NCBI GenBank assembly: GCA_963965975.1
Contig: OZ014411.1
Span: 4,697,001-4,761,000, forward strand
Source: Xestospongia bergquistia
Lineage: Eukaryota; Porifera; Demospongiae; Haplosclerida; Petrosiidae
DNA length: 64,000 nt
Direction of reading: 5' to 3'
The notes beneath the pieces are model-generated. The model had not been told where the DNA came from. It searched no databases and worked only from the letters and a program-made list of their open reading frames with translations. The number at the start of each line of letters is the position of its first letter. Positions within the stretch are counted from its first letter, which is position 1. The position numbers and the translations under genes were made by a program. Shown one piece after another: positions 1 through 45,300 of the stretch.

Positions 1-1580
1 GAGGTTAAACATAACAGTGCTTCTTGTATTGCTAAGAAACTACATGACATACTAACGGGAGCTTTTGAAGAAGCATGTTTGTGTGTGACCAAGAATGGAG
101 AGCTATTGTGGACAAGTTTGGTCAAGAATGTACTTTGCTTAGTAAGATGAGTCATTCCAATGTTGTCCAGTTTCTAGGAATCTACCAGCCCTTAGCTGAT
201 GCTAGAGATATTGCACTGATTATAGAGAGACTCTACATGAAACTAGAACACCTTATCACACATTATGGTGAAGTATTAGCTCCAACTAGCTAGTATACCT
301 GCAACATCCAATAATGATGTGTTCTTACCTATCAAGGTACATATATATTATGAGATATCTCCTGTGGATTATTACACATTCATTCTCATGGTGCTGTACA
401 GCATTATCTCAATAATAGTAATGTACTATTAACAGAAAGTTTGCTAAAGTGACAGATCTTGGTGTTGCTAAGAAGTCACTAATAGGAAAGTTATCAGTTG
501 CTCCTGGTGCTACTGACTATATGCCTCCTGAAGTGATATCTGCTAATGTCCAATTTATAGTAATATCCCTGACATTTTTTCTTTTGAACGTCTGATGCTC
601 TACTTGATTAACTGGAAACCTTTCTCTTCAAAGGATAAACATCTCAACCATACAGAAGCTATGGAAGACGAAGGTGGCCATCCAATTCTACTTCATAATT
701 TCCAATTCTACTTTGAACTTTTCCAAAAATACTCCAATTCTTTTTTCTATCCTTTATTTTTATCTTTCTATCTTTCTTTTTAATTTTTATCTTTTCTATT
801 TTCTATCAGTTCACGGTGCTTGCTTCACTTCATTGAGCTCAATGAAGTGAAGCGAGCACTCGAGCCATGGAGCGAAGCGATATGTTTCCGGTTAGGGTGG
901 GGATATAGGAATTTAGTTGTTTAATATTCCATCGAATAATAGAAAATAGAATTTGAATTGAATATTTTTGAAAAACCTCAAAGCAGTATATGAAATTACG
1001 AAGTAGAATTGGATGTCCGCCTTCGGCTTCCGTATACCGTAAAAGCTGGATTACCTCTTGATAACATGCAAGCTTGGAAACATAGCTGCTTTCTCTTTGG
1101 GAACAATCATAGCAATACCAATCCAATGAATTAGTTTTGAAATGACACTCAGATATCATAAATGTACAGTATGTTACTTCTTTGCATTTAATTTTAATGT
1201 ATAAATATAATCACAATATGTCTATCATTAGCGTTTTAAGATTTATAGAGTCACATATGTATAACTAGTTATTGGTTATGAAAAACACAATAGTGGCATA
1301 TCTATTATTTAACAGACTATAGCTGAGAAGCTTATAGCATCAAATGGTCAGTTTTCAAATCAATGACCATACTATCTCCAAACTATCTTAGGATATTAAA
1401 TCTTTCAGCAACAACCATACCAGTGCAGTCAGGTACTGAAGTTGTAGTTAATACACCAAGGAATGTTATTAAAGAACTATCAAGCCAAAATGAAACAGTA
1501 TCAACAAACAACCTCAATATAAAGACAAGGTCAGTGTTGGATAAGCTACTTCTTGTAGATAAATATTTAAATGAACACTG
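1..1580 (+). pseudogene. Kinase/coiled-coil/zinc-finger copy A, broken and truncated by the window edge
   Basis: Bases 1-620 translate in shifting frames to the kinase domain seen intact at 17176: a segment like EVK..SCIAK..LHDILTG, then the hinge motif ALIIERLYMKLEHLITHY, then relics of the catalytic loop and of the VAPGATDYMPPE segment. There are several frameshifts, an internal deletion near 400-440 that removes the HRD region, and a premature stop near 292. A foldback element splits the C-lobe at 651-1041; kinase-like sequence (SGLPL-like) resumes at about 1042. The coiled-coil exons are missing. The last exon begins after an acceptor at about 1320 (compare 9619 and 24618) and decays by about 1540, without the zinc finger. 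Clearly a pseudogene; the 5' end lies outside the window. Confidence 0.85.
651..1041. mobile_element. Foldback / MITE-like element inside pseudogene A
   Basis: The two ends are imperfect inverted repeats: 651-720 reads TAC..ggaagacgaaggtggcc and the reverse complement of about 975-1041 reads TAC..ggaagccgaaggcggac, both continuing into catccaattctacttc. The centre holds a 44-bp near-perfect palindrome at 816-859 around GAGCTC. Flanking kinase sequence resumes on both sides, so this is an insertion. No transposase is encoded. Exact ends and target duplication are uncertain by a few bases. Confidence 0.7.
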
Positions 1581-1589
1581 GTAAGCCAA

Positions 1590-2310
1590 TGTCGTTCACT
1601 TTTAGGAATTTATATACCATGCAGCTCACAGCTGACACAAAAGATATATGTTGAACTGACTAGGAGAGACTCTACATTGATATAGAACATCTCATTTCAC
1701 ATTATAATGAATATTAGCTCTAACAAATGTACCTGATCTTGTAACACTATTTTTGCCCATCAAGATAAAGTATATGAAGTGTATGAGATATCTCCAGTAG
1801 ACTATATTACACAACCATTGCTGTAATATTATTACTGACTAAATTTTTAATGTCTAAAGTGACAGATATTGGTGTCACTTGTATTATTTAAAAGTCAGCA
1901 GTATAAGCAAGTTATCAATCAGTCCTTGGTGTCTATAACTATAGCCTTGTCTGTAAACCCAGTTTATAAGAACAGTACATTTGGTACCTTCTCTCTGGGT
2001 CATTTAGTGTTCTCCTTAGTTATTTTCCTAATTAGACACACGTACATCCCTACCCTTTGACAAGTACTTACATCATACTATGCTGGCTCAGAAATGTAAA
2101 AATTAAGTAGGTTGTATCAGTGAAGTGTGTGGCCCTTGTAATTTTGTAAAGTAGGCAATCAACTATCTTCACAATGAACCAATGACTTATGATGGCAATA
2201 GATGGCATCTGTGAACTATTCAAATCAAATGAACATAGGGTCTCTATCTGTTAATAAACTAAAAAGAGAGAGTGTACTGAGAATAAGTTAAACTTTAAAG
2301 TCGCACATCT
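1590..2310 (+). pseudogene. Ancient kinase-domain relic 1
   Basis: Heavily decayed kinase domain. Recognisable pieces in order are a GIYQP-like region (about 1600-1640), the RLYMDLEHLITHY block (1665-1710), a PATSNNDVF..IKVHI-like region (1725-1790), the LLT..AKVTDLGV block (1835-1890), the NPVYNN..TFSLGH block (1945-2010), and the C-lobe CKVAVHCLQDEP region (2110-2190) running into RRES. It carries many stops and frameshifts. The same decayed form recurs at 13452, 27370 and 44767, so those copies come from duplication of an already dead sequence. Confidence 0.75.
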
Positions 2311-2378
2311 GAAAATAATGAAATAAAGAATGAAAAGAATGTAAAGTGGCAAACATAAAAGTCCCCAAGTGTAGTGTA

Positions 2379-2447
2379 GTCCCCAAGCGCCAACTTGTTA
2401 AAGCGGAAAAGGACCTTTTTCGCGTTGGCGAGTGGGCGTCTGGGGAC
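2379..2447. repeat. GC-rich hairpin element upstream of copy B
   Basis: The left arm gtccccaagcgccaac (2379-2394) pairs with the right arm gttggcg..tctggggac (2424-2447). The right arm contains gcgagtgggc, which is absent from the left arm, as if the left arm had a short deletion. A second partial left arm (gtccccaag) lies at 2361. It stands out in AT-rich surroundings and ends 58 bp before the start codon of copy B. A related and more perfect hairpin is at 37755-37812, and ccccag..ctcgggg versions lie upstream of both F-box/LRR-like genes. It may be a small non-autonomous element or a promoter element. Confidence 0.6.
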
Positions 2448-2459
2448 GAGAGGGCGAAT

Positions 2460-2505
2460 CTTGGTACGCCCATTTAATTGAGTAGTGAACACTCCCTCAC
2501 AAAGT
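2460..2505 (+). promoter_or_regulatory. Conserved leader just upstream of the copy B start
   Basis: The sequence tacgcccat..aattga..ctccctcacaaagt directly before ATG 2506 is nearly repeated before ATG 17176 of copy C. This marks it as a retained 5' leader or proximal promoter. It supports choosing ATG 2506 rather than any upstream non-ATG start. Confidence 0.5.
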
Positions 2506-5500
2506 ATGGATTCCCTTTCGAATCGACCTGACTATTTTATTAATTTAGATGAACCTATTGATCCAACCAAAAGACTTGGAGCAGGAGCTTATGGAGCAGT
2601 TTATGAAGTTAAACTTAATGGAGCTTCTTGTATCGCTAAGCGACTACATGATATACTAACAGGAACTAGAGGAGAAGCTCGTGTCAGTGATCAAGAATGG
2701 AAAGCTGTTGTAGACAAATTTCGCTACGAATGTTCCTTACTTAGTAAAATGAGACATCCCAACGTCGTCCATTTTTTAGGAATTTACCAGCCTACAATGG
2801 ACCCAAGAGATATTGCACTGATTATGGAGAGACTCTACATGGATCTAGAACACCTTATCACACATTATAAAGAAGTACTAGCTCCAACTAGTATACCTGC
2901 AACATCTAATAATGATGTGTTCTTACCTATCAAGGTACATATATTACGAGATATCTCCTGTGGATTATTACACATTCATTCTCATGGTGTTGTACATCGT
3001 GACCTCAATGCTGGTAATGTACTGCTAACAGAAAATTTCCAAGCTAAAGTGGCAGATCTTGGTGTCGCTCGTATTATTAAAAAATCACCAATAGGGAAGT
3101 TATCAGTTGCTCCTGGTGCTACTGACTATATGCCTCCTGAATCTCTGGCTGTAAACCCTGTTTACAACAATAAACTTGACACCTTTTCTTTAGGACATCT
3201 GATGCTCTACTTGATCAACTGTCAATATCCTCAACCACATGATTTATCTCTTCAACACATAGCTATCTCAGCTAAAAAGTCTGGATTACCTCTTGGTATG
3301 CAAGCTCAGAAACGAAAGCATTGGTTAGATCATATTAGTGAAGAGTATATGCTCTTTGTAAAGTAACTGTTCATTGTCTTCAAGATGAACCTAATGGCAG
3401 ACCAACAATGTCTGATTTAGAGAGTACCCTTGATGAACTTTGTAAACAGTTTCCAAAATCAATAGACATTGTGTTTATGTTAATGAATAAAAGAAGAGAA
3501 AGTGCTGACAAAATAATTGAGAGACTTAAGTCTAAAAATGAAAAGACTGAACTACATCATAAAGATGAAATAACAAAATTAAAGGCAACTATAAAAGAAT
3601 TGGAAGACTATAACAAACAAATGAAGACACAGGTATGCAAATACAATAATGTAAACCAATATACTATTGGTTCTATCAATGAGACATTCATTTCTTAAAA
3701 TATAATCTATTGTTAACATGTGTGCTTATTAAATGATATGACAAGCCCAAAGGCAATTATTATGGAATAAGAAATATGTTTGTCAATTGTTTATATTACA
3801 GTATTTATATGCATATATACATATATGGAGTAATAAATCCTAGTAAAAATTCCAGCATGATTTGTAAGATCTCGTAAGTCTTGTCAAGAATTTATTAGAT
3901 GTGCCAAGGTTGTTAAATCTTTGTTAATCTTATGTTGGACAATATCACATGGTCTTAAGACCTTATATGATATGTACGCAATGAAAAACTCCAGTCATAA
4001 AATTGAAGCATGATCTTACATGACCTTATATGATGGTAAGATTATCTGAGATCATGAGAATCCTCTCTATCATGAATGAAGCATGATTTTGTATGACGTC
4101 ACATGATAATAAGAGTATTCAAGATCATGAGAAACTTATGACTATTTCTAAAGTTATGTAACTTATCAAGATATCAATCTAAATCAATGATATTTATTAC
4201 TTTTTGAATAAATGTCACAAGTTTGCCCAAGATCATGTAACAAACCTCACATCAAAACCTCAAATGTATTAATGTAATCAGAATTATAGTTGTGTGTTAA
4301 CACACAGTAGAGTCTCACTAAACTAAATAATTAGGGTATTAAGATATGGGTCCTAATTAATGATTTCCTACATTTTATAAATATACTTTAGACTTACATG
4401 TATTTTTATTTGCTTTTTTAGTCTTGCTAATTATTATATTATACAATGTACATGTTGTAATGTACAATGTAATTGTTATTCATGTTTTGCAGATAATATT
4501 CCAATTAAAGTGCACCCCATTCTTATATGTACGTGTACATGTAGTCTTGATGCTCATGGTAATGATATTTATTTGTTGCTAAATACGTCAATTGTTGCTA
4601 TATAATTTCAGCAGAAGTGGACATGTTTGCAATGTAATAATCCTGGGAAGATGCACATATACACAGCATGAGTTGAGGCCGAATGCATTGCTGTATTATC
4701 ATTGAGACCACAGTCAGTGTACAATATGTTTCATGTACCTTGAGAACAGAATTATGCTTTAATTGATTTATAATTAATTAATTTATTAATGATGTTTAGG
4801 TGGATCAATAGTACTTGATGAAGCTACAAAGAAGCGTGATATTTGTTTTAACAGAAGTTATCCAGTGATACTATTTATCCTATACCCAGTACAATTCCTT
4901 TAACGTTTATCAAAATTTAAATGTACATACTTATAGTACATGCACCAACTTTATGTGTTGTTCATCTCTCATAACAGCATTAAATGTATATGTTTGTGTT
5001 ACTTAGGACTTGCGGTTACTCAGAGAAGACAATGAGAGGAAAGCTAATGTTATAGATTGTCATCTTAGTGTATTGAAAGAAAAAGAGGAAGAAATTGAAA
5101 AGCTTAAGATCACAATAGCTGAGTTGGAAGTGGCTAAAGCAGAGCATTTGGAAACTTTGAGAAATGAACTTGCTCAAAAGGAAGCTAAAATAATTGAACT
5201 GCGTGATCATTTTGAAGATAAGAAAGAAGGAATAAAAGTAATGAAAGAAGTATTAGCAACTAAAGATCAGGAGTTATTTGACTTAAGTAAGCAACTGGAG
5301 GAGACTAAAACTCAATTGATAAATAAATCTCAAGAGGTGTCTAATTTGGAACAACAACTTAAGAAGGTCTTAATTCAATTGCAAGATGACAATGCTGCAG
5401 TAAATGTTAAACAGTTAAAGATTGTTGAACTTACTGAACAACTGGAACTTGCTAAAGTAGAAGTAAGTTATCATTGTTGAGTACTTCATACTACACTTTG

Positions 5501-8500
5501 TTATTCTTTGTTTTAAACCATAAACATTTAATTAATGACACATGTAAGGTCAATTAATGTAATTTTATTACCTACCAAGTTATTTTTTTAATGATAAATA
5601 ACAAACACCACTAACTATTAATATATAACCCTTTTCAGCTGTGTAGAACTCGTGTACTGTAGATGAGCCTATGACAAAAGTATCCAGGAGGTAGATGATA
5701 TTATTGAAAATTGATACAATTAAGTTTTTACAGAGCTTCAAGGAACACTGCCAGACTTATTATTATTGAGTCACGATATTATAGAAGTTTGAAGTGATGT
5801 GATTGCATCATGTTTAATGCCTCATCATCACTTTTTAAATTTACTATTTTATTTCAGGCTGCTGGATATAAGGAAGATTTTGAACAAAAGAGAAAAGACA
5901 GAGAAATACTACATGCAGAGCTAACAAGTCAATTAATAAAAAGTCAAGGTGTTGCTCATGGACTACAACAAAAACTGACCCAGGTTATATGTGACAAGGA
6001 ACATGAAACTCAGACACTTAAGATAGCTCAGCAGAAAGAGATAGAAGTACTTCAGAATCAACTTTCTAAGATACAAGAACACAAATCAACTCAAGAGGTT
6101 ACAAGCAAGTTAACAGAAGAAAAAGACAAAATAAAAGACTTAGAGGAGGAGAATCTAGTATTGATCTCACGGGTTAATGCTTACAGTCATCAATGTGAAG
6201 AGTTGAAAAAAAATTTTGAAGAAAAAATAGAAAATTTGGAAGAAGAGAAATTGGTTTTGACCTCACAAGTTAAAGCTTATAATCGTCAATGTGAAGAGTT
6301 AAAGAAAACAATGGTACAACTTCAAGAGAAATCAAAGACTTTAGAGGAGTGGGTCTATCATAAAGAAAGAATAGCATCAGAGGTAATGTGATAATATAGC
6401 ATATTTATGTTCATATAATGTTATTAATACATCGCAGTTTTCAAAATTTAAATTACTATGTTCTTTCCACATACAAAATGCACATAATATACTGTATATG
6501 TATATGATGACCACACCCACTATTTTTGACTACAGCTTCAGTTTTATTGAATGTAGAGATTCGGCATAACTCATCATTTTAGAGGTCTCAAAAAGCATTA
6601 GTACTAAGGAATTATGTTGTACACTGTACATGATATTGTGTCACTACTTTGATTTAGATTTCTTAAAGTACTATTGACTATAAGTGTTAAAAATTGATGT
6701 ATTGAATTAGCAAGGACATTTTGTGGGTGTGGCTATGTATATACATACATATACATTAGAATATTATTGTCAAGTACAAAAGAGGCTAGCAACCTAACAG
6801 AAATGTCATATTAGCATAAAGATGTGTATGTATATGTCAGCCATGCATTTAATCAAAAGGACATAACCAAACATGGTGGAATATATAGCCTTGTATTGTC
6901 ATTGACAGTTAGCCAAGTGAATCCATTAAAAATGTTGGGTTGTATTGCCTTCTAGGATTTAAGTCACATCTTTCTATTATGTATGCACAACAGCCAAGCA
7001 TAATAACCCTGAAGTGTTGTTTTAATAGGGTAAGTAAGTTGCCAATGTTCAGCAGCTATGGTAGGATGACCATGTACACCAAAATTCATGTTTGTAGCAA
7101 TTTACATAAATATCTCTCTCCTATGTTTTCAGCTATACAATAGTTTTGTTTATTTCACTCCTTGCCATAAAAGTGCATTCAAATATAATAGACATAGCCC
7201 AAAACATTTTAAACTTTACTAATAGAATAAAAACGGAATTAAATGAACAAAGCAAGTAACATTATTTATATTGTATTTCTGTTTAGGTTGATGAGTTAAA
7301 AAATCAAGTCCAAAATGCTGAAGCCAAAGCTCAAAGTGCTCTTGATAGTAAAGAACATCTTTTGGTAGCCTTTCAACAAGAACAAAGGAAAGTAACAGAG
7401 TTAGAAGGAAAATTATCTTCACAAATAAAGCCAATGGAAATTGAGAATTTAAAGCTACGTAATGCAAATAAAGTTAGTTTAATTTGTTTTTCAACTTATT
7501 ATAAAAACATTATAATACTTAGTAAATTGGAAAGTTGAAATCAAAGTCTGCTCTCAGCTTCCATATTTACAGTACATGTAGACGATGAGTAGGAGGTATA
7601 TGTTCACAATCCATACATTATATTGCAAATAGAACATTCCTGTTTAGCCCTTTTGCTCTATTAGCCAACCTAATACTATATATCTGGAAACTCTCATTAA
7701 TTAATTTTCATGATTTTTTATGTACACGTGAACATACGAGTTCAGTATTTATTATTTTTAAGTGGTTACAAACAACCCCAAAATAATTATATTGTTGGAG
7801 TAGATTATACATATAATCCACAAGGGTTTGTACAGGACAGCCATTTGTACATTTTGTAATCAATTATACTAGTTCTTGATATTTTCAAGCAAAAAATAGA
7901 CACATAATACTCTAAAAATTAAATGTTTTATTTGAGTCAATCTTTAATTTGGTGAAAAGATCACTGATACCATAATTTGTTATAAATGCTAGGTTGTAAG
8001 GTCTCTCGCAATATTTTTTCAAACTCCCTCATTGGCAGACAGAATTTATATAACACATGTAATATACTTATACATGTACATTATAGACCAATGAAACATG
8101 TTATATCTGATATGTCTTATTATGAGACTTATAATATAATATAATTCATTGTCTATGAATTAATACTTTGCTGACAAGCTACATGTACATGTATATTCTT
8201 TAAAAAATTATCAAATTGGCAGGTTGATTAATGCATATGACATATCAACTAAGAAACCATAGTCAAAGTGCCTTAAATCCAGAAATGTTTATATTATATA
8301 AATTTTTGTGGTTCCTTATAATAACCAAGATAATCTGCAAAACACAAAAGCAATTTTACACAAAAGACTAATATTATAAATAAATGTTTTTTGTGAATTT
8401 CAAAAATAAATATATTATGGTATGTACATGTAATATATTATATTATGGTATGTACATGTAATATATTATATTATGGTATGTACATGTAATATATTATATT

Positions 8501-10593
8501 ATGGTATGTACATGTAATATATTATATTATGGTATGTACATGTAATATATTATATTATGGTATGTACATGTAATATATTATATTATGGTATGTACATGTA
8601 ATATATTATATTATGGTATGTACATATAATATATTATATTATGGTATGTACATGTAATATATTATATTATGGTATGTACATGTAATATATTATATTATGG
8701 TATGTACATATAATATATTATATTATGGTATGTACATGTAATATATTATATTATGGTATGTACATGTAACTTGTTGTATTATTACATGTATAATGTACAT
8801 GTAATAATACATAATTATTTATCATGTATGTGTTATACATGTATGAAGCATGATTTAGATGTCTAAATATACTATATTATATAAACTTGCCAATAAGAAT
8901 AGTGTTGCCCAAGGGTTATAGGACCAAATGTGATATTTTACCAAAATCCCAGGCAAGTTGGTTTATATGATGTTCTTAACAATACATATACAAGTTTATA
9001 AACCATGATATATGTCTGATATAACTTACAATGAGATTCCTAATAACTTATTGTTATTGCTCCATATAGTATATTGCTGTCAACCAGTTGACAAGTTATA
9101 CATGTGTAATTCATACATCAAAAATGACAGGTCATTAGATCTGTATTAACTTGTCACTATGTCTTTATGAAAAAGGAACAAACTATTTTGCTCTTATATG
9201 TACACTTTCCAAATAGTAAAAACCTGTTAAGAAGTTTACATGTATAATATAGAACCAACACTCCATTCAAAATGTATGGGCTAATTGTATTATTTGTTAT
9301 TCACAACAATTAACAATAGGAAATGAGCTTAAACCTCTTAATAAGTTAACTGCTAATAAAAAGGCTACCATAGAAGTTTATTAGCTATTATCATGACTTC
9401 CATCACTAGGTTGCTTGCTTATCTGTCTTTAGCATTTTGTATTCTATCCTTTGCTTTCCAATTTCAAAAATAAAAGTGGCTTTTAAAAATCAATTATAAT
9501 ATAGTTTTCAATGCCTGTAAATTATAAGTAATCATACTGATACTAATGTAATGACTTACCTTAGAATCACATAATTAATAAATGTTTATTGGTTATTAAT
9601 GTAGCTTTCATTTTACAGACGATTGTTGAGAAACTTAGAGCATCAAATGATCAACTGTCAAAGTTAAGGTCTGTACTACCTCCAGACTATCTCAGGATAT
9701 TGGATCTTCCATCAACACCTGTACCAGTGCAGTCATCTTCACATCCACATTCTAGCATTCAGATGATTAGAACTAACGTTGGTGACACTCATTATGCTCC
9801 AAGAAAGAATGATGTTTGGCCTCCTGAAGTGCCTCCAGGCCCTAATGTCCCTCCTGAAGGTCAAGAAACATATTCATTAACACAACGTGAACAAGCAACT
9901 AATCAAGGAGGTGCTCAAGTTGTAGTTAATACATCAAGTAATGTTATTAAACAGATACCAAACCAAGCTACAATGGTATCAACAAATCAACCTCAATACA
10001 AAGAGGAACTTAGTGGTGGATATGCTGCTCCTCAAATGACAGCAGCTCAAATGCAACAGTTTGCTATACATGCTCAAAAACAAAGGGAGCAAGCTCTATC
10101 AAACCAACAAGAAGAGGAAAGGCTAAAACGTCTAGAACAGCAAAGGAAAAGAGAAGACATGTTAGCCAACCAAGCATTGCAAGAGTTGGAGAAAGTGGAG
10201 AAGGAGAGAGTCAAGAAACAAGGTGCTCATAAACCTAACCCAATTTCCCAAACCACACCCACTAGTTCTAATTTGGCAGGAATACAACCTCAAAATAATA
10301 CAGTTGGTCAAGTGGTGGGGGGAGCCCCTGAAGTGATTGATGACGCAAAGAAATCAGAAGACTTCCCTGAAAATGAACTTTTCCAGAATATTGACCAAGA
10401 AATCCAGTATTATGCTAATAAAGTTCGTGATATGACAAAACGTCCTACTACTGCTGAAGTAGATGCAGATGATCACAGTTCATTACCTTATGATCCTAAT
10501 CTGGTATGTCATAAATGTGGTAAACGATATCGTATTGGAGAGATACAAAAGTTTAAACGTCACATTAAAGAGTTATGTCCTAACAAGAAGTAA
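2506..10593 (+). CDS. TKL kinase / coiled-coil / C2HC zinc-finger protein, copy B (one frameshift)
   Basis: Predicted exons, all joined in phase 0: 2506-3632, 5007-5462, 5858-6382, 7287-7472, 9619-10593; about 1088 residues if the frameshift is ignored. Exon 1 is a TKL kinase: glycine loop GAGAYGAV, Lys in CIAKRL, HRDLNAGNVLL catalytic loop, DLG in place of DFG, PPES in place of APE. A 2-bp TA insertion near 3347 (EEY region, compare 18009) breaks the frame in the C-lobe, giving a stop at 3366; sequence resumes in another frame through RPTMSDLE to the donor at 3633. Exons 2-4 are coiled coil; exon 3 holds two about 33-residue repeats (EEKLVL..QVKAYNRQCEELKK). The last exon has a Q/E/K-rich linker and the finger CHKCG..KFKRHIKELC. 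A pseudogenising mutation and an assembly error are both possible. Introns are 0.4-2.1 kb. Confidence 0.8.
8409..8770. repeat. 28-bp minisatellite, 13 copies, in an intron of copy B
   Basis: The unit ggtatgtacatgtaatat plus attatatt recurs every 28 bp, with GGTATG at 8419, 8447 and onward to 8755, so 13 units. Two units carry tgtacata instead of tgtacatg. Each unit contains the palindrome TGTACA, part of the TACATGTA motif scattered through the window. Confidence 0.95.
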
Positions 10594-13451: not shown

Positions 13452-13827
13452 TCCCTTATGAAAAATTTACCAAGCATGCAGAGCTGACACAAGAGATAAT
13501 CTATTGCACTGATTATAGTTGTGAAGATACTCTACATGGATATAGAACATTTCATTTCACATTATAAAGAATAACAAGTATATATACCTGATCTTGTAAT
13601 GATGTATTTCAGCCATCAATGTATATATATTATATGAGATATCTCCTGTACATGTGGACTTTTATACAATCATTGCTCGTAATATATTACTGACTGGATG
13701 TTTACAAGCTTAAGTAACAGATCGTGGTGTCACTTGTATTATTTAAAAGTCAGCAGTATAGGCAAGTTATCAATCAATCCTGGTGCCTTTAACTATATGA
13801 CTTATCTGTAAACCTAGTTTATAAGAG

Positions 13828-15611: not shown

Positions 15612-15805
15612 ACAGTTTTCACTAACAGTACTACTTAATGTTATTGTATATTGTGTATTGTTTTTTGCATTCAAAATCAACCATTACTTTTGTTACACTT
15701 CTTATTGTTACTATTGATGTATCGTATTTACTTGTCTCTTGTTGTATCTGCTGTTAACTATAATATTATAATATTAGACTTTATTTATTTTCAAAAAAAA
15801 AAAAA
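13828..15805 (+). mobile_element. 5'-truncated non-LTR retrotransposon (LINE)
   Basis: The insertion is flanked by the 11-bp duplication gtttataagag (13817-13827 and 15806-15816) and ends in an A-tract (15793-15805). These are hallmarks of target-primed reverse transcription. The 5' end is missing: the element begins inside the reverse transcriptase at catalytic motif A. Its base composition is clearly richer in G and C than the flanking relic, consistent with a recent arrival. Confidence 0.93.
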
Positions 15806-17090: not shown

Positions 17091-17131
17091 AAGGTTTACG
17101 CAGGCTGGTACCCTTTTTATTGCTCGCTGGG

Positions 17132-32886: not shown

Positions 32887-34876
32887 ATGGAAGCTGTCAT
32901 TAGTACTAGTAGGAAGATAACTGAAAGAAAAGATCTAACTATAGAATTCGAAGATCCATACAGTTATTATGAGCTTGATGAAACTTATTATAAATTTGGG
33001 TCTTTTGCAAACCCTTGTACTCTTCAATTCCAATGTCTTCTGTTCATAGTGGGTCATTTAGATCAGTTTCCAGTGACTATACTAGCATTACTTCCTACTA
33101 GTTTGCGTCGTGAGCTTCTTCTATTGTTACCAGCAGTGGATGTGTGTAAGTTAGAGGAAACACCAGTCGTTACTGATCTACCAATGGAGGAAATATGGGA
33201 AACACTTTATAAAAGTAATGTTGACGGTAATCATGAAAATATAGTAGCCAGGCCCAAAAAAGATGTCTACTTTCAAAAGGTACTATCAAGCTTGGACAGT
33301 AGACCAAAAAATCAGTTTCTTAAAACACCTCGTTCACGCCTCGAGTTCCCTCATCGGTTAATTTTAGATCTTCTTTATGGTATAAATGATAAACAGCTTA
33401 CAGAATGTTTCAAAAATAGTAAGATAAAGGGTAGTTTTCATGATTTACTTCGATGCCCTCTTCGTTCCTCACCCTACAGTCCTACACGTTATTACCATCA
33501 TTTTACTGATCCATGCTATGCAGACCATTTATTTAAAATGCCTGAATTAATCAAAGTGCTAGTTGATGAGTGCCACATTTCCTTTCGGTCATTGGAGATT
33601 AATGAGAAATTTTATAATGCACCTTGTTATTGGGAAATAGAATCGTTTGAAGTACCTTATTCAACTTATCTAAAAAGGTTGTTTGGCTCAATCGAAACTC
33701 TTAATTTGTACTCGAATAGGGAAAACTATTACGGCCGTACTAAGCACATTTTAGATGACATTAATTCTATTGTTGATTTTCATAATGAATTGAAGAAGCT
33801 TACAGTTTCATTTAGTAATTTTTCCGACTTGGGACATTTGTTTGAAAAGCCATGTTTTAGAGAGCTTAATATTCAGCACACTGGTCTGTCATTTGATGAA
33901 CTTTGTGATATTGTATATCGTTTTCTCACTTCTCCATATCCTGTTACCTTATGTCTTAAGGATGTTAATTGCTTCAGTCATTCGAGCTCTACATCACTAT
34001 CGCCACCTGTCCAGCAAGATGGTAATGATTATTCAAAATGTCTTATATTAGAATTTGTCAATTTACCATTTCAGGTTCTACCTCCTATTCCTCATCTTAA
34101 AAAGCTTGTTTTAGTTTCAAACAAGTGGCAGATGTTTACTAAACTTGAGACTATCCAAGCAGAAGTGGTTGATTTGACAACCTTTATATCTACAGTGGAA
34201 GTTGATGGTTTGTGTAAACTGTTTGACATTGTAACTACAAAAGAATGGCAGTTATATATACAGTTTGAGAATAGTTTGAATTCTCGTTTGAAAGACTTGA
34301 TTGATGCCATTTCTAAACTTCATAATATTAGTCAATTAAGGTTTTCTTTTAACCGTTTCTTCACTCCACGAGAATTGATTTATGATGTTATTTTTAATCG
34401 TCTTCATGAACATCTTTCTCGAATGAAGATCGAATTTCGTGATTGTTACTTTGATGACATTAGTATAAAAGAAATGTACGATAGTTGGAAAAGATGCGGT
34501 GCAATAAAAATGAAGAAGTTGTTTTTTACTGGACGCTTGAGATTTACACACAACTCTGACTATTTTTTGTCTGAAATGCAGATTTTGATTTAACAGTTAA
34601 TTTTTGTTATTGTGTTTGATATTGTTGAATTTAGCAAACAAACAATTTAAAATCTAGCAGGCAAAAATATGTTTACATATTTTCACTAGTTATATATGCT
34701 ACATATATACATATACATGTATATACTTAGTTTTATACTTAGTTTTCTGCATTTATGAGTGACACAAATTAATATACACATCTTAATAATATAATGTATG
34801 TTAACTCAAAATTTATTATTAATTACTAAAATATCAATAATACAACAGTTAAGTCCATATCTAACATTGCTGTGCT
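32115..34876 (+). repeat. Segmental duplication, first copy (F-box/LRR block)
   Basis: A direct duplicate lies at 40820-43590. Identity is high across upstream sequence, the whole reading frame and about 280 bp of 3' flank. Left ends share caataatgattgattagtgag, right ends share cacatctaacattgc-type sequence. Confidence 0.9.
32887..34593 (+). CDS. F-box/LRR-like protein, copy 1 (open, 568 aa)
   Basis: Single-exon frame from ATG 32887 to TAA 34593. Residues about 57-95 (LDQFPVTILALLP, then LRRELLLLLPAVDVCKLE) have the Leu/Pro pattern of an F-box or similar helical motif. The second half has leucine-rich stretches at regular spacing (KKLTVSFSNFSDLGHLF, FRELNIQHTGLSFDELCDI, LKKLVLVSNKWQMF), suggesting an LRR-like solenoid. 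No signal peptide or membrane helix. If the F-box call is right, the protein would act as a substrate receptor in an SCF ubiquitin ligase. I recall similar proteins as a large sponge-specific family without assigned function. The family name is inference. Confidence 0.75.
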   Translation: MEAVISTSRKITERKDLTIEFEDPYSYYELDETYYKFGSFANPCTLQFQCLLFIVGHLDQFPVTILALLPTSLRRELLLLLPAVDVCKLEETPVVTDLPMEEIWETLYKSNVDGNHENIVARPKKDVYFQKVLSSLDSRPKNQFLKTPRSRLEFPHRLILDLLYGINDKQLTECFKNSKIKGSFHDLLRCPLRSSPYSPTRYYHHFTDPCYADHLFKMPELIKVLVDECHISFRSLEINEKFYNAPCYWEIESFEVPYSTYLKRLFGSIETLNLYSNRENYYGRTKHILDDINSIVDFHNELKKLTVSFSNFSDLGHLFEKPCFRELNIQHTGLSFDELCDIVYRFLTSPYPVTLCLKDVNCFSHSSSTSLSPPVQQDGNDYSKCLILEFVNLPFQVLPPIPHLKKLVLVSNKWQMFTKLETIQAEVVDLTTFISTVEVDGLCKLFDIVTTKEWQLYIQFENSLNSRLKDLIDAISKLHNISQLRFSFNRFFTPRELIYDVIFNRLHEHLSRMKIEFRDCYFDDISIKEMYDSWKRCGAIKMKKLFFTGRLRFTHNSDYFLSEMQILI

Positions 34877-35607
34877 GTTTGTTTAAGACAAACATGACAT
34901 TAAAGAGACTGTCTTAACCATCATAAGTAATTGTAACAATTTTGTGTTAACTTATGAATATAAAATATGGCAGTGCATGTCACCTTGACTCATGAAGGTA
35001 CTGATACATAAGACATGGATTAAACATGTAGTAGCTAAGAAATCACCTACTGCCTATAATAGTAATAGCAAAAGTACACAATCTGTAGTAACAAGCTGGG
35101 ACTGATGATACCTATATACATATGTTAAAGTTAATATAAAATTAATATTGATTGATTTCTTTGTTTATATTTGAGAGGCATAAAATACTGCAACTTGTAA
35201 CCAAATAGTAGATGTCACAGCTGATAACATTCTCTTTCTACACTTACATTGATATAATAATCCAGTGCTCATATCTATTATAAAGAATCTGTGCAACATC
35301 TCTCCATTGCAGCAATTGATTTTATATTTTTGTCTTAATAGCATGTCTTGAAAATCATTCACATTTGTAAAGCATGTAACAATATCATCTTGTGATTCAT
35401 TTTATAAGAGAATTGCTCAACCACTCTCCATGTAAAATAACCCTCGGTCAACTTTCTCTCAATTCCATTGTGTCATGTTATTAGCAAATTTCAGTGGATA
35501 ACGTATAAGTTATTTCTAGAATCATCTGATGTATTTGTGCTCTGATCTTTTTTCTAACTTTAGATGCTAAGACTTTTTATAACAGTTGTATGCATTAAAT
35601 GCATTAC
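34594..35607. other. Intergenic, no gene seen
   Basis: 3' flank of the duplicated block to about 34876, then AT-rich sequence without a supportable frame, up to the inverted repeat arm. Confidence 0.4.
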
Positions 35608-37543
35608 ATACCTTCTAGACATGATTATAGAATCCTCTCTATGTTCTAATTATTACTTGCTTAAAGGGAGATTCTCTTTGGGTGGGTACACTGTTAAAAT
35701 AAATTGGTTGTTTACTGATTCATAACCACTTGGGTTGTATGGATGCCCACATTGAATACATATAGAATTAACAGCATACATTATTTGATAACTAATTACT
35801 ATGGAACAGTACATTTTGTGTACTTAAACAAATTTTCTCATACATCTAGCATGTAAGGATGTCCTGTTTCATAGTTTGCAGCCCTCACAAACATGTAAAG
35901 ACCCACCATATAGATGCACGAGCTAGTATCCATGAAAATTATTTTTTCTAACTAATGAGATATTAAACAGAATCTTCATTGCTCTGAGAACCAACTGCAT
36001 ATGGCTTTCAATTAGTATATCATTATAAAAATTGATTGGTTGATTTAACCAATATATTGTTATACAGGTGGCAATTGCAAACATATATTTTTGTAGAAAA
36101 AGTAAGTATAATACTGTTTTTATTACTAATGTACTGCTACTACTGCTTATATATATAGTTACATAAACAATATTACATAGTACATTAGTATCCAAAACAG
36201 TGTTATGTTTATAATGTTTATAACCAACATTGTGTTAGTTAAATCAACCAATCAATTATTACATAAATTTTAGTAATCGATTTTTTACAGTGTACCTATA
36301 ATGTATTAAATTGCTAGTTATTCTTTATCAAAATATACCAAATTTCTTTGAAAAATAGAGGCTCGAGACCTATTGATCATGCTTTTTCACATCTAGCTAT
36401 GTGTACTCATGTTGTTCTTATTCTTCATTCTTCAAAATGTCCAAGTGCAAGTCTTTGTTTCCTTCAAGCTGACAGCAGTTGACTGTTTAAAGAAATATCC
36501 TAGCAGATTCCAGTGAGAGAGTTCAATGTACATGTGAGCATTGTTAGATTAATGATTGTTATATATTAGAATAAAGGCCTCTCTCATTTAGAGCCTGATA
36601 AAAAATCTTATAAAGAAACAAAGGCTCAACTCTTCCGTTTGACAAATATAATTTTGTTACTGACAAAATGAATCCCCAATAGCTACTGCTAGTTTAAAAA
36701 GCACAAACAGAGTAGAAAAACAAAAATAATAACAATAAAACAATATAGTATAAAAAGTAATGGATAAAGTATGATTAATAATATAAGATGAAGATAAAAA
36801 TTGATGATTAATGATATCTGATACGTTTTAGTGTGATAAGTGATAGAAGGTGGATGACTAGTACATAAGCATATTTGCTTTAGATTTAAAAGTGATTAGA
36901 GATAAGCTGCTAGATATATTTCACATGATAAAGAAGTGAATTCCACAGAGAGAGAACCGAAGAAACAAATGAGTTTTGTGAAGCAGATGGGAAAGAAAAA
37001 AGGATGATAAAGGGGTGAGAGGATCTAAGTGATGAGAAGCATGACAAGTCAACAATTTTGTCTGATGTCATTATATTTGAATTAGAGTATGGTATAAGAA
37101 GACTGAGTCAACAGATTGTCTGGTACCATACATTAATGTGATAATATTGGCAGATCTCTCTACATCAAATATATATTTTGATAATTCATTGGTAGTCTTT
37201 TAAAAATTAATCTTATAATAAACAATTACTATTATACAAAAATTCATTGCACCATGAAGCTTTGTAAGAAATTTAAGACCATATTTTTGCTATACGTCTA
37301 CATGTATATATTGCAAACAAGGAAGAAGGCCTCTAACTGAAGCATGCTTAGCAGGAGAAATTCTTCAAAAAATGCAGTGTGTTAAAATCTTGTATATAAT
37401 GTACCGGTAGTTTAACTATATGCACATATGCACATCATCTGTTTAGTTACAGTGCATAAACAAATTTTGATTCCCTACATTATTGAAACACTACCATGCT
37501 TACTGTAAAGTTTATCAATATCTACTTAATAAATCACTGTTCA
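35608..37543. repeat. Left arm of a large inverted repeat
   Basis: About 1.94 kb present in inverted orientation at 45973-47938. Landmarks: attacttgcttaaagggagattctctttggg here and its complement at about 47855; accatgcttactgtaaagtttatca (37495) and its complement near 46005. The arms are clearly similar but not identical. The arm contains a MITE (35685-36298). Confidence 0.9.
35685..36298. mobile_element. MITE with CACTGT terminal repeats (copy in left arm)
   Basis: The left terminus tacactgttaaaataaattggttg and the inverted right terminus aatcgattttttacagtgta are TA-flanked (TA CACTG..CAGTG TA), as in Tc1/mariner-type MITEs. Subterminal ggttgatttaacc motifs recur. Related copies are at 47209-47844 and 50210-50790. 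No transposase is seen. Confidence 0.7.
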
Positions 37544-37754
37544 TTGTAATTGTAGTGACATTTTGTGCATTAACTATTATATTAATTTTATTATAATTAA
37601 TTATACTTAATTATATTATATTATTATTATTAATTAATTACACTTAACTATTATAATTATTGTGACAGTGTAGTTTAAATTTAATTGTCTTCATAAATGA
37701 TTGAACCTAAACTTACCATCATGATGTCTTAACATTATCAGTCTAGCTAATCTC

Positions 37755-38059: not shown

Positions 38060-39100
38060 TTTGAAGATGTGGTGTGTGCTACTATAAAATTAAATGCCCC
38101 AGTCAAGAAATACCTCCAGATTATGTCTACTAAGAATGAGTTATTATTAGAATTATAGTCAGTTAGTAATAATATTGGGTATGGCTATCTCACTGCAAGC
38201 TCAGCATATAATATACCCTACTCAGATAAGTATATCTGAAATAATAATGTATGCAATAATTTGTAGTGAAGAAACTTGGAAGAAAGCATTGAAATCTCTG
38301 GAGGAGAAGTACCAATTAAAATGTCACTTAATAAATTGAAGACTATATTATACTCAGAAGATGTTACCTCTTTTTTGACACAATTATGTGAATACCGACC
38401 AGTTTATACTTGCTTTTGAACCCATTATGAAGAGTGCACTTCATCCTTTGTCACCCAAGTCCATTGTTTAACTCAACAGATTGATCCAAACACGCCTTTT
38501 ACTGATATTATCTGGAAGATTTTAACTGGTCTGGCTGAAGAAAATGTCCTCTTTGCTATTGCTCAAGACTCTTTGACTGTTCGTCGAGTTTTGGGAGAAA
38601 CTCCTGTTGATTTGTCTAAATATAAATCAGGTTCTTGGTATTCAGAGGGTGAAGCATGTGTTATGTATCATAAAGATATTCACAAAACATCAGCTTGTAA
38701 AGAAACATGCCCAAGAGATACAACGCCAGTGCTTGTGAAAGAGTTAAGTTGTAATCGAGATGTTGAAAAGGGTGTTGGTGTGGATATGATGGTAACTAGT
38801 GGACATGCAACAGAGAAAGATTGGAATATTCGATACTCGTATCATAATAGTCGCTTTATCTGTCAGTCCAGTAATATGGTGGGCAAGGCTATGGATGGCT
38901 CTACCCATCCAATAACATTTGATGGCAAGCTCAAGATTCTTAGTGCAGCTGGTAATTGTCTAGTGGATAATATTTGCAAGAGAAACTGTATGGTATTGAC
39001 ATGGATGCATTCAGTGGGTGTGGTCCGAATGACGGGCTATTTAGTGCCGACATGGCTTGGTTTTGGTATATCACAGACTATATGTATGTGTAGCTTCTGA
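38060..39100 (+). pseudogene. Decayed multi-exon gene, family not recognised
   Basis: After an acceptor at about 38056 a frame reads FEDVVCATIKLNAPVKKYLQ and stops at about 38157. Further pieces follow at 38330-38470 (EDVTSFLTQLCEY, FILAFEPIMKSALHPL) with frameshifts. The longest open part is about 38460-39100 (DPNTPFTDIIWKILTGLAEE, then HNSRFICQSSNMVGKAMDG). Nothing is diagnostic of a known domain. The 3' end runs into the dispersed repeat that is also found at 60320. It looks like a broken host gene or element. Confidence 0.45.
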
Positions 39101-39845
39101 GAAAGTATATACAGGTGTATCCCTTCTCGACCACTATATATCAACTAATTATAAGGATTTATCAAAAACAGTTGGAAATGGTTTTTAAGCTAAAGTATTG
39201 TTTTTATGCATTACAAGTTTGATATTTTTAAGTCTTTGGGGAGGATCAAATTTGAGGTACAGGCCTATTGCAGATAATAACTTGACCACTATGTCAACTG
39301 TATTTGTGATAAGAGTAAAAATCGTTTAGCTTGTAAAAGGTTATCTGACAATTATTAATGTGCATTTATAGAAAGCCATTTACTATACATATGTTTTAGG
39401 TTTAAGTAGGAGAAAAAAAATTGCTACTTTTGAACTGCACGCACAAATGATATTAATAAATCAATATGAATAAATTATTGTGCACATCATAAAAATAGCC
39501 ACTCTGGTCTCCTCTGCAAATTTACATATTTTTTTGAAGGAGAATTGAAAAGATGCTTTCTTATAGTTCTCATAAAGATATTGCTGATCACATTCTATTT
39601 CATTAAGGGAATGACTGAATAGATAACCAAATAAATTTTAAAGACCTAAATTTGGACATTCAAGCAAACTCTAACCTCTTACATATATTCACACACACAC
39701 ACATATATATTGAATAGTTAATTATTCAATAACCACAAAATTATGATAATTAAACACATGGTAAAGCATATGTTTGATTTTGCCCCACATAAGGTGAATG
39801 ATCCTATATAATCCATGTTTAGATATACTACAATAATCCACTAAT
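39050..39845 (+). repeat. Dispersed copy of the 1.1-kb terminal repeat
   Basis: Matches 60338-61150: tttggtata..cagactatatgtatgtgtagcttctgagaaag, the ggggaggatcaaa..gaggtacaggcc segment (39238), and ccacaaaattatgataattaaacac (39731). The copy is more diverged than those at the window end. Confidence 0.85.
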
Positions 39846-40790: not shown

Positions 40791-40819
40791 AGTAATTATT
40801 CTTTAAATGAAATTTTTAA

Positions 40820-43590
40820 AAATGAAGTTACAATAATGATTGATTAGTGAGAATTGAATTTCTGGCGTGAGCAGGAACAGAGATAGAGAAGTTAGAGAAG
40901 GTTGTGATATTAGAACATTATGACAAGGAGCAAAGAAAGTGGTAAACACATGGTTTGTTATTGTTGAATTTAGTTAGAAAATGAAATCAAAAGTAATTGT
41001 TTGGTTGCATGAAAATTCCATGTACTGATAGATTCATAAGTCAATAGATGAAAAATCATTCCACGAGAATTGAAGACTTCTAGAATAAAAGTGATTGATA
41101 AGTTTGTCAAATTTGGTTGATCAGGTAGAGCCTGTAGTGAAGGATAAATTTGTGTTTTTCGAACAATGAATCTAATCTAGATGCTAGTGACTTGATGTAA
41201 TATCTTGAGTTTTAAAGTACATCATCAAAAGCATAACATTAAGTGATATAAATTGTTCTTGTTTATCAGATAAGAAATCCAAGAGGAAGAACTTGTTGTA
41301 CAGCACTGAATTTGCTCCAGGATTATAATAGCTTTGATGATGTGGACACATTAATGGTCTCTTGTTTAATGGATTATATATATAATATTATAGTTGTTGA
41401 TTGTATATAAGTAGTCCTTGTAGGATCTTTTGTTAGAGACTTAGACACTCGTCCCCAGACTAACACGCTCTCTTTTTGCTCGGGGACATGACGTCTGCAT
41501 GACCAATTTGCTATATATGGAATTATAATTAGAATCCATATTACTATGACCACACCTGTTCCTGTTTATGGTTGCAGTGTAAAATGGGAGCTAGTACTAG
41601 TGCTAGTAGAAAGAGAAAAGATCTAACTGAAGAATTCGAAGATCCATACAGTTATTATGAAAAAAAAGATCTAACTGAAAAGTTTGAAGATCCATACAGT
41701 TATTATGAACTTGATGAAACTTATTATGATTTTGAGTCTTTTGCTAACCCTTGCTCTCTTCACCTCCAATGTCTTCTATTCATAGTGGGTCATTTAGATC
41801 AGTTTCCAGTGACTATACTAGCATTACTTCCTACTACTTTGCGTCGTGAGCTTCTTCTATTGTTACCAGCAGTGGATGTGTGTAAGTTAGAGGAAACACC
41901 AGTCGTTACTGATCTACCAATGGAGGAAATATGGGAAACACTTTATAAAAGTAACGTTGACAGTAATCATGAAAATATAGTAGCCAGGCCCAATAAAGAT
42001 GTGTACTTCCAAAAGGTACTATCAAGCTTGGACAGTAGACCAAAAAATGAGTTTCTTAAAACACCTCGTTCACGCCTCGAGCTCCCTCATCGGTTAATTT
42101 TAGATCTTCTTCATGGTATAAATGATAAACAGCTTACAGAATGTTTTAAAAATAGTAAGATAAGGGGTAGTTTTCACAATTTACTTCGATGCCCTCTTCG
42201 TCGCTCACCCTACAGTCCTACACGTTATTACCATCACTTTACTGATCCATGCTATGCAGACCATTTATTTAAAATGCCTGAATTGATCAAAGTGCTAGTT
42301 GATGAGTGCCACATTTCCTTTCGGTCATTGGAGATTAATGAGAAATTTTATAGTGCACCTTGTTATTGGGAAATAGAATCGTTTGAAGCACCTTATTCAA
42401 CTTATCTAAAAAGGTTGTTTGGCTCAATCGAAATTCTTAATTTGTACTCGAATAGGGAAAACTATTACGGCCATACTAAGCACATTTTAGATGACATTAA
42501 TTCTATTCTTGATTTCATAATGAATTGAAGAAGCTTACAGTTTCATTTAGTAATTTTTCCGACTTGGGACATTTGTTTGAAAAGCCATGTTTTAGAGAGC
42601 TTAATATTCAACACACTGGTCTGTCATTTGACGAACTTTGTGATATTGTATATCGTTTTCTCACTTCTCCATATCCTGTTACCTTATGTCTTAAGGATGT
42701 TAATTGCTTCAGTCATTCGAGCTCTACATCACTATCACTACCTGTCCAGCAAAATGGTAATGATTATTCAAAATGTCTTAAATTAGAATTTGTCAATTTA
42801 CCATTTCAGTTTCTACCTCCTATTCCTCATCTTAAAAAGCTTGTTTTAGTATCAAACAGGTGGCAGATGTTTACTAAACTTGAGACTATCCAAGCAGAAG
42901 TAGTTGATTTGACAACTTTTATATCTACAGAGGAAGTTGATGGTTTGTGTAAACTGTTTGACATTGTAACTACAAAAGAATGGCAGTTATATATACAGTT
43001 TGAGAATAATTTGAATTCTCGTTTGAAAGACTTGATTGATGCCATTTCTAAACTTCATAATATTAGTCAATTAAGGTTTTCTTTTAACCGTTTCTTTACT
43101 CCACGAGAATTGATTTATGATGTTATTTTTAATCGTCTTCATGAACATCTTTCTCGAATGAAGATCGAATTTCGTGATTGTTACTTTGATGACACTAGTA
43201 TAAAAGAAATGTACGATAGTTGGAAAAAATGTGGTGCAATAAAAATGAAGAAGTTGTTTTTTACTGGACGCTTGGGATATACACGCAACTCTGACTATTT
43301 TTTGTCTGAAATGCAGACTTTGATTTAACAGATAATTTTTGTTATTGTTTGATATTGTTTAATTTAGCAAACAAACAATTTAAAAGCTAGCAGGTAAAAA
43401 ATTTATTTACATATTTTCACTAGTTGCATATATACATATACATGTACTTAGTTTCTGAATTTATGAGTGACACAAATTAATGTATATACACATAATAATA
43501 ATGTAATTGTATGTAAACTCAAAATTTATTAATAATTAATAAAGTATCAATAATGTAACAATTAAGTCCACATCTAACATTGCCTTGCTG
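40820..43590 (+). repeat. Segmental duplication, second copy (F-box/LRR block)
   Basis: Direct duplicate of 32115-34876, inserted immediately after the Ig/FN3 remnant. The break near 40820 joins FN3-derived sequence to block sequence. Confidence 0.9.
41584..43328 (+). pseudogene. F-box/LRR-like protein, copy 2 (1-nt frameshift)
   Basis: Near-identical paralogue of 32887-34593. ATG 41584 starts a protein whose N-terminus carries an extra tandem copy of a 17-residue unit (KDLTEEFEDPYSYYE / KKDLTEKFEDPYSYYE). The frame breaks near 42513, where copy 1 has gattttcat and this copy gatttcat (one T fewer), giving a stop at 42528. The remaining 267 codons stay open in the next frame to TAA 43328. Because the rest is undamaged, either the mutation is very recent or the base was lost in sequencing or assembly. 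If the base is restored the product is about 580 residues. Confidence 0.8.
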
Positions 43591-43950
43591 TAACCCGAGG
43601 ACTCGAAGAATTGCTAAACCATCTATTTGTACAACTGACAACCGACCCAATGACAATAATAATAACTATAACAACTGTAGCAAATAAGACAACTATGACA
43701 ACTGACAAAATACTAAAAGCATGCGGAATTTATATGAATACATGATGTAATAATACACAATAATGAATATATATTAATACATATAGGTTCAAGTTACCTA
43801 GTATATCACAAACAATACATTACTGATACTATTCAACTGATTATAGGTAGTTGGTATATATCCTTAATTATTTATGGCACTTGTAGAAAGACATTGCATA
43901 AATGTTTATTGGTTATGAAAAATGTAACTGACATATTTGTTATTTCACAG

Positions 43951-44703
43951 ACTCTAGCTGAAAAGATTAAAGCATCAAATGATCAACTGTCAAAGTTAAT
44001 GTCTGTGCTACCTCCCGGCTATCTCAGAATATTGGATCTTCCATCAACACCTGTACAAGTGCAGTCATCTAGACATTCTAACATTCAGATAACTGGATCC
44101 AATATTAGTAATACTTATTATAGTTCCAGAAGGAAAGATGCTACTCCTCAAATGTCAGCGGCTCAGATGCAACAGTTCACTATACATGCTCAAAGAAAAA
44201 GAGAGCAAGCTGTACTAAACCAAAAAGAAGAGGAAAAGCTAAAACTTCTAGAACAGCAAAGAAAAAGATAAGACATGTTAGCAGACCAAGCATTACAAGA
44301 GTTGGAGAAAGCAGAGAAGGAGAGAGTTAAGAAACAAAGTGCTCATAAACCTGACCCAATTTCCCAACCTGCACCCACTAGTTCTAATGTGGCAGGAATA
44401 CAATCTCAAAGTAATACGTTGGCCAAATGCTGGGAGGAGCACCTAAAGTGATTGAGAAATCCAAAGACATCCCTGACAATGAACTTTTGCAGAATATTGA
44501 CCAAGAAATCCAGTATTATGCTAATCAAGCTCATGATATGACAAAACGTCCTACTACTGCTGAAGTAGATGTAGATGATCACAGTACAGCCATTATCTTA
44601 TGATTCTAACCTTGTATGTCATAAATGTGGTAAACGATATCATATTGGAGAGATACAAAAGTTTAAACATCACATTAAAGAGTCTTGTCCTCACAAGACG
44701 TAA
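43951..44703 (+). pseudogene. Orphan last exon (linker plus zinc finger), copy E
   Basis: The acceptor and preceding 150 bp of intron match copy C (24,460-24,617). The frame starts TLAEKIKASNDQLSKLMSVL and stops at TAA 44271 (KR stop, where copy C reads KRRDM). It then continues with further frameshifts through the linker (about 44415) to an intact-looking finger CHKCGKRYHIGEIQ..HHIKESC and TAA 44703. No kinase or coiled-coil exons precede it, since the F-box/LRR block lies directly upstream. Dead fragment from duplication of the copy C 3' end. Confidence 0.9.
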
Positions 44704-44766
44704 CATACCTTCTTACGTTATAGCTATGCTTTGTGTGTAATATGTATTAATCATTTATGAGATAAT

Positions 44767-45300
44767 AGTGGAGATATCTCCTGTGAACTGTTACACAATC
44801 ATTACTGATAACATGTTATTGACTGAATGTTTACAAACTTAAGTATAAGATCTTGGTGTTGTTTGCATTATTTAAAAGGCAGCAGTATAGGCAAGTTATC
44901 AATTGATCCCAATTGATCCACATGCCTTGAGCTTTGTCAATAAACCCAGTTATAAAAGACAGTACACTTGATACCTTTTCTCTGTGTCACTTAATGTTTT
45001 CCTTAATTATTCTCCTAATTAGATACATGTACATCCCTTCCCTTTAGGAAGTAGTTGCAATTGCTTCCTACTATGCAGGATCAGATATTGAAACATCGTG
45101 AATAGATTGTGTTCAGTGAAGTGTCTGGCTCTTATAATTTTGTAAAGTAGGCAATCATGATAAGGAGAGTGTATTATACTGTCTTAGGAGAGTGTATTAT
45201 ACTGTGAACTATTCCACATAAGGCCTATGTTGGTAAACAAAATAAGAGAGTGTGCGGATAAAAGTTGAACATTAAAGTTGCACATCTAAAAATAATGTTT
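44767..45300 (+). pseudogene. Ancient kinase-domain relic 4
   Basis: From gagatatctcctgtg onward this closely follows 27,617-28,170 (relic 3), including ggcagcagtataggcaagttatcaa and cctatgttggtaaacaaaa. A short internal tandem repeat (aggagagtgtattatactgt twice at 45160-45200) is unique to it. It is joined abruptly to the 3' flank of copy E at about 44767. Confidence 0.75.

Follow-up and report, generated by a model that had tools for sequence, protein, structure and literature searches.

The window analysed here, 64,000 nucleotides from the sponge Xestospongia bergquistia (C1:4697001–4761000 of a 146.5-Mb, 21-contig genome assembly, to which all genome-wide counts refer), carries a tandem array of genes and gene relics in which an exon for a TKL-type protein kinase precedes coiled-coil exons and a tail exon ending in a C2HC finger. 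Self-BLAST of the window and its open frames show that kinase, coil and finger exons recur through positions 1–45.3 kb, as an earlier reading of the same DNA (the original prediction) had described. The kinase exons at 2482–3366 (copy B) and 17158–18354 (gene C) are open, as are the tail exons at 9565–10593, 24555–25436 and 30703–31584. All members of the array described below are on the forward strand, and positions without a prefix are those of the window.

Judged from its sequence, gene C is the only intact full-length kinase–coil–finger gene in the window. It has four exons, all with GT–AG borders and in phase 0, and encodes 865 residues without an internal stop. Exon 1 (17176–18300) contains the ATG, the whole TKL-type kinase domain and the start of the coil, and ends at the donor CAG/GTAAGC. 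Exons 2 (19499–19978, with a 48-residue internal repeat) and 3 (21650–21823) encode coiled coil; a duplicate of exon 3 without a clear acceptor is found at about 22393–22565. Exon 4 (24618–25436) supplies a low-complexity linker, a Q/E/R-rich stretch, the C-terminal C2HC finger and the stop. A second intact gene, K81 (C1:4684900–4690731), is found 6–12 kb before the start of the window, and its four exons have the layout and phase of C. The K81 protein has 879 residues and no internal stop, and starts with MDSLSN where C starts with MDSFSN.

We consider it probable, though well short of certain, that these genes represent a fast-evolving tandem family, with splicing that links a TKL kinase exon to exons for a long coil and for a C-terminal C2HC ββα finger. 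Kinase, coil and tail follow one another in this order at four neighbouring loci that are separated by relics, with gaps of about 1.0–2.4 and 2.4–4.6 kb. The similarity of C to B, K81 and a further copy, K85, ends at 18309–18310, only 9–10 nt beyond the border of exon 1 (18300), and C and K81 have exon borders and phase in common despite their far-diverged coils and tails. In an AlphaFold2 model of exon 1 of C (mean predicted local distance difference test score, pLDDT, 83.8), a helix at residues 319–374 leaves the kinase and reaches the exon end. We take the family, probably, to be lineage-specific.

The kinase domain is readily recognized. In a Pfam scan, the whole C protein matches PF00069 (E=4.4e-34) and PF07714 (E=1.4e-29); at E ≤ 0.01 all 865 residues gave only kinase models plus two sub-threshold coil models, with no death-fold or TIR domain. 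The catalytic residues E75, H164, D166, N171, D184, G186 and E212 are invariant in a 22-row kinase alignment, and the β3 lysine, K45, is present in C. IRAK4 is the top sequence match in the PDB (61.6 bits, best 60 of 199 considered), TNNI3K, CTR1, B-Raf and LIMK1 are also among the best matches listed, and the same sequence and profile-based lists (the latter the best 60 of 1808) hold TK chains (EGFR, ALK, TYK2), PLK4 and TAO. All 50 rows listed by Foldseek for the kinase are IRAK4, at 20–23% identity. Pfam models, PDB sequence matches and Foldseek thus agree with the TKL-type kinase first proposed, and on sequence the domain is TKL-like with IRAK4 as its nearest solved relative among the matches listed. 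The narrower label 'RIP-like' found no support: no RIPK appears among the 60 best PDB matches of 199, among the 60 best of 1808 or in the 50 Foldseek rows, lists that are dominated by IRAK4 entries. RIPK family hallmarks are a RHIM, a death domain or a CARD, none of which turned up when the 865-residue C protein was scanned with Pfam at E ≤ 0.01.

The coil of C gives a strong heptad signal over residues 315–593 (z=8.3, a value reached by none of 500 shuffles). The finger is the best-conserved part of the tail, and its motif, C57-x2-C60-x14-H75-x4-C80, is invariant in all ten aligned copies. Structure prediction, which the original prediction had proposed for kinase and finger and which we ran for both, gives strands at residues 51–56 and 63–65 and a helix at 69–79, with pLDDT of 87–89 over residues 51–80; the model thereby predicts a single C2HC ββα module, in line with the finger read by eye.

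The remaining copies in the window are less complete. B, C and D had been described as structured genes; this proved right for C, which is intact and full length, but not for B. In copy B (2482–10593), the coil exons (5007–5462, 5858–6382 and 7287–7472) and the tail exon with its finger (9619–10593) are open. The frame of its kinase exon is broken by a 2-bp insertion near 3349 and ends at 3366, within the C-lobe of the kinase, while homology to C runs on in another frame to 3641. As read, B appears to be a pseudogene or a recently disabled gene. Its last intron contains a 28-bp tandem repeat (8411–8769, 12.8 copies, 98% match). Gene D (29837–31584; exons 29837–29992, 30225–30380 and 30703–31584, phase 0) is, as read, a complete coil–finger gene of 397 residues whose ATG at 29837 is preceded by an in-frame stop, but the live kinase attributed to it is absent: the kinase relic upstream (27430–28237) contains no frame of 120 residues or more. 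Part of that relic (27605–28237) is 89% identical to the kinase relic downstream of copy E.

Copies A and E are dead, as expected from the first reading, and self-BLAST and genome matches reveal older relics of further copies. Copy A is a kinase relic (1–614, 81% to B), with a genome match containing four stops at C1:4697075–4697446; it is followed by a tail relic (1253–1553) and a second kinase relic (1586–2320). The tail/finger exon of copy E (43811–44770, 85% to C) has a stop and a frame break, and a kinase relic (44762–45355) lies downstream of it. Between C and B are another kinase relic (13448–13826) and a finger-only relic (15921–16114), the latter within the 5' flank common to C and K81. 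A reverse transcriptase frame (13818–15611, RVT_1 E=9.8e-8), which from its look we take to be of the non-long-terminal-repeat class, adjoins the kinase relic, precedes the finger relic and is placed as though inserted into an older copy. On this evidence the array is genuine yet smaller than originally described, its intact members being C in the window, K81 just outside it and a kinase-free sibling.

The two ends of the C protein have different distributions in the genome. Counting paralogues, as had been suggested, we found at least 105 rows for the C kinase (E ≤ 1e-10; a lower bound), 25 for the tail and 14 for the coil exon. Thirteen kinase rows at ≥57% identity correspond to 12 loci; the remaining 92 are at 27–42%, and three of those are further pieces of the same 12 loci. 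Of the 12, C1:4.40–4.72 Mb contains seven (C, B, K85, K81, K4403 and two relics), C1:8.03–8.05 Mb three and C1:6.24 Mb two. All of the tail rows fall within C1:4.46–4.74 Mb and C5:3.31–3.34 Mb, and the coil rows are confined to the same regions. A family kinase is upstream on the same strand at only 4 of the 14 coil rows (K85, K81, B and C), which does not fit the 'one architecture' of the original prediction; for the other ten, upstream DNA was read for three, and seven were judged by absence among the C-kinase rows. For example, a chromosome-5 gene, C5a, has an M20 peptidase frame upstream that ends 1.3 kb before its coil exon, and the coil copy at C1:4629 kb is preceded by further coil-like exons and, about 5 kb further up, by the end of a different kinase. 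No family tail was found at the 8.03–8.05-Mb, 4.40-Mb and 6.24-Mb kinases (tblastn, E ≤ 0.001, in fetched loci that cover the 3' flanks in part). The distribution of matches indicates that kinase and coil–finger modules are separable genome-wide.

Some of these loci have features of their own. Upstream of a long kinase-free coil gene lies the C-terminal part of another kinase (L070:4759–5115, reverse strand; PF00069 E=3.2e-9), which has GYG as its DFG-like motif and so is possibly inactive. The 8.03-Mb kinase copy (L016:1510–2553, reverse strand) has HCD in place of HRD, and its match contains a stop. Beside the 8.04-Mb kinases is a frame resembling HSP70/HSPA12 by eye (L065, reverse strand, 1166–3198); its main part is without a Pfam match at E ≤ 0.01, and the 8.03-Mb copy has a similar piece next to it.

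Comparison of C with K81 shows how the modules have been recombined. The two genes share a continuous block of 85.4% identity (15805–18310 in C) comprising 1.4 kb of 5' flank, the finger relic and the kinase exon. This block stops in intron 1, 10 nt past exon 1, and downstream only exon-sized matches of 74–86% remain. K81 instead aligns to the kinase-free gene C5a from the coil exon through the introns to the tail, at 72–81%. Synonymous divergence (dS) between C and K81 is 0.37 in the kinase (95% interval 0.28–0.48), 0.94 in the coil exon (0.56–1.80), 0.98 in the tail body (0.68–1.46) and 0.43 in the finger (0.20–0.77); between K81 and C5a it is 0.17 in the tail (0.11–0.24). In a tree of tail bodies, K81 groups with the chromosome-5 copies and with P4666 (100/99), and a second group unites C, B, K85 and E (100/99). 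A kinase tree of eight rows places K81 as the sister of C, B and K85 (83/86); an 11-row tree leaves its placement open. Because the C–K81 block ends in intron 1 and K81 matches C5a beyond it, the sequences indicate that a module of 5' flank and kinase was exchanged through that intron between different tails. Either gain or loss of a kinase at C5 is compatible with this.

A second kind of exchange is seen in the tail of D. In its last windows (C positions 25254–25440), D is 89–97% identical to C, B and K85 and 84–91% to E; before C position 25204 identity is at most 72%, and similarity collapses after the stop. Informative sites in D are of the C/B/E/K85 type at 5 of 33 positions and then at 29 of 45, including all of the final 13 (permutation p=0.0002; 9 of 87 sites that fit neither type were dropped). 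The likeliest reading of this mosaic is that the finger of D is a conversion tract to its neighbours' type. The array most likely evolves by duplication and decay (birth and death), by exon exchange and, probably, by gene conversion.

Substitution patterns point to purifying selection on the kinase. Between the kinase of C and those of K81, M8042, B and K4403, pairwise ratios of nonsynonymous to synonymous divergence (dN/dS) are 0.29, 0.26, 0.32 and 0.47, respectively. We also counted private nonsynonymous (N) and synonymous (S) changes along single branches, a rough test since it uses only codons at which the remaining rows agree. K81 has private kinase changes of N24:S30 (p=4e-7) and C, with three relatives, N12:S11 (p=0.01); tail branches give N40:S19 (p=0.04) for C and N23:S14 (p=0.03) for C5a. 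The branch leading to the tail body of D carries 0.36 changes per site and no stop, whereas not one of 4000 neutral simulations, run with substitutions only, kept its frame open. Because a branch of such length is without a stop, the D tail has been coding for most of its history.

Several results weigh against the reading of a constrained kinase–coil–finger family. The Pro-rich and Q/E/R-rich segments of the tail have no heptad signal (z 0.6 and −0.9), and the finger model is weak overall (mean pLDDT 72.2, predicted TM-score 0.38). Approximately unbiased tests reject neither placement of D (p 0.173 and 0.135). Once K4403 is added, the kinase branch of C gives N8:S3 (p=0.72), and there is no significant constraint on the tails of K81 (N19:S8, p=0.35) or P4666 (N33:S11, p=0.59). 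In the finger, dN/dS is 0.8–1.6 in five of six C/B/D/K85 pairs, with very few synonymous changes. Together with the many broken copies, the loss of significance for the C kinase and the K81 tail would suit a decaying cluster in which C and K81 would simply be the most recent copies, without function. We regard this as unlikely, given the private kinase changes of K81, the long open branch of the D tail and the intactness of C and K81 across four exons. The kinase and the coil–finger part could also be separate, alternating neighbour genes that never form a fusion protein. The kinase-free gene D exists, no tail was found in the fetched loci of related kinases, and the exon-1 frame stops 17 codons beyond the donor, so that an unspliced kinase-only product is conceivable. 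However, the repeated order at four loci, the borders and phase common to C and K81, the end of conservation at the donor and the predicted helix running from kinase to exon end make separate genes very improbable.

Other alternatives concern function. A role of the cluster in immunity or cell death, which the original prediction had favoured, seems doubtful to us, though less so than decay. IRAK4 is the nearest solved relative among the matches listed, and within about 6–12 kb of the array end there are a caspase and a further TKL kinase with a coil. Birth-and-death evolution is common in immune families. According to one report, sponge NLRs group mainly by species (PMC12909245), and according to another the lipopolysaccharide-responsive genes of Halichondria panicea include annotated kinases, TRAFs, RIPK1 and ubiquitin ligases (PMC8242945); the latter makes an immune role possible for such genes and says nothing for the C family itself. 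On the other side, only kinase models pass the Pfam cut-offs in the C protein, IRAK4 is only the first entry in lists of various TKL and TK kinases, and one caspase nearby says little because the genome has 99 caspase matches. The caspase domain itself was confirmed, but the frame read as its death domains (55596–56051, reverse strand) matches no Pfam family at E ≤ 0.5. What stands of the original proposal is a fast-evolving cluster of signalling genes, with live, truncated and dead members. The finger might alternatively be a BED-like nucleic-acid binder, perhaps derived from a transposon, that targets the kinase to DNA or RNA. All ten members have weak zf-BED matches at E ≤ 5 (best E=0.0024), and classical zinc fingers, many of them DNA-binding, prevail among the 50 Foldseek rows listed for the finger. 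Yet none of those rows reaches E ≤ 1, PF02892 scores 13.6–16.0 bits in the B, C and D tails against a gathering cut-off of 20.6, and there is only one finger; we consider this reading quite improbable. Most improbable of all is a kinase fused to a ubiquitin-binding scaffold like NEMO or optineurin (coil plus C-terminal CCHC finger). The overall order, a long coil and then a terminal C2HC ββα finger, is the same, and one B coil exon has a weak CC2-LZ match (E=0.032, below cut-off). Still, D-[FY]-x-x-E-[RK] (DF..ER), the UBAN ubiquitin-binding core, was not found in the C protein, the finger spacing of x14 and x4 differs from the x12 and x3 of NEMO, and neither the Pfam rows nor the Foldseek rows listed include a UBZ or NEMO finger.

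The rest of the window contains further repeated sequence. A gene of 585 residues, leucine-rich-repeat/F-box-like by eye and with no Pfam match, is present in two copies with 90% DNA identity (32836–34593 and 41533–43328), the second split by a frame break; it has 17 matches genome-wide, many confined to one N-terminal segment. An inverted duplicate of 2 kb (35606–37544 and 45972–47936, 90% identical) has one arm after each of these copies. A kinase of a different type, in two overlapping frames, lies at 51660–52996, with a Q-rich coil-like frame first and a C-terminal kinase with DYG. Long tandem units at 60321–64000 are 83–99% alike and also match 39067–39844. Across the genome, scoring 150 of 4312 first-look candidates gave 163 SRCR domain matches, which suits a sponge, a survey table giving 174–408 SRCR entries for four demosponges (PMC12465263).

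Returning to the spliced kinase–coil–finger family, a coil of such length adjoining an active-looking TKL kinase suggests an oligomer activating in trans: by analogy with MLK, DLK and ZAK, the coil would make the kinase an oligomer switched on by trans-phosphorylation. The finger would probably dock the complex on a partner, and the kinase-free siblings D and C5a, with coil and finger, could join or compete as regulatory subunits. More tentatively, and with rather less confidence than we place in the family itself, we may be seeing the formation of a young signalling enzyme. An exon for a TKL kinase would have been captured, via the phase-0 intron 1, onto a lineage-specific family of coiled-coil/finger scaffolds and joined anew to more than one lineage of them; scaffolds without a kinase would have been retained in the cluster as built-in dominant-negative partners, and gene conversion would keep the fingers of the partners matched. 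The locus would serve as a natural laboratory for how kinases gain oligomerisation and docking modules: one genome contains intact fusions together with siblings that lack the kinase, kinases that appear unfused and broken copies, and the junction of the exchange can still be seen in intron 1. Should the kinase-free siblings assemble with the proteins that carry the kinase, an activator–decoy pair would have arisen by tandem duplication alone. The family would also be one more of the species-specific expansions that have been reported for signalling genes in sponges.

Among known systems, the closest geometric fit to the finger in the Foldseek rows listed (root-mean-square deviation 1.1 over 26 columns, TM-score 0.74 by target) has an E-value of 2.6 and only a small fold in common with it. 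NEMO, optineurin and TAX1BP1 have a coiled coil that ends in a small zinc finger, as do the kinase-free siblings, but C is without the UBAN core and no matching Pfam finger model is among the rows listed. The likeness to IRAK4 and to other TKL kinases such as TNNI3K, CTR1 and B-Raf is one of the kinase domain; IRAK4 has an N-terminal death domain, whereas C has none and ends in the long coil and finger. MLK, DLK and ZAK are TKL kinases whose kinase domain is followed by a leucine zipper that drives dimerisation and activation. Their coiled coil comes directly after the kinase, as it does in C (helix 319–374 and the heptad signal); the likeness is one of architecture, and the coil of C is about 280 residues long with a C2HC finger at the end. 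ROCK and citron kinase are AGC kinases with an N-terminal kinase, a long coil and a zinc module (C1/PH) toward the C-terminal end. C follows the same order of kinase, long coil and zinc module, but with a TKL kinase and one C2HC finger.

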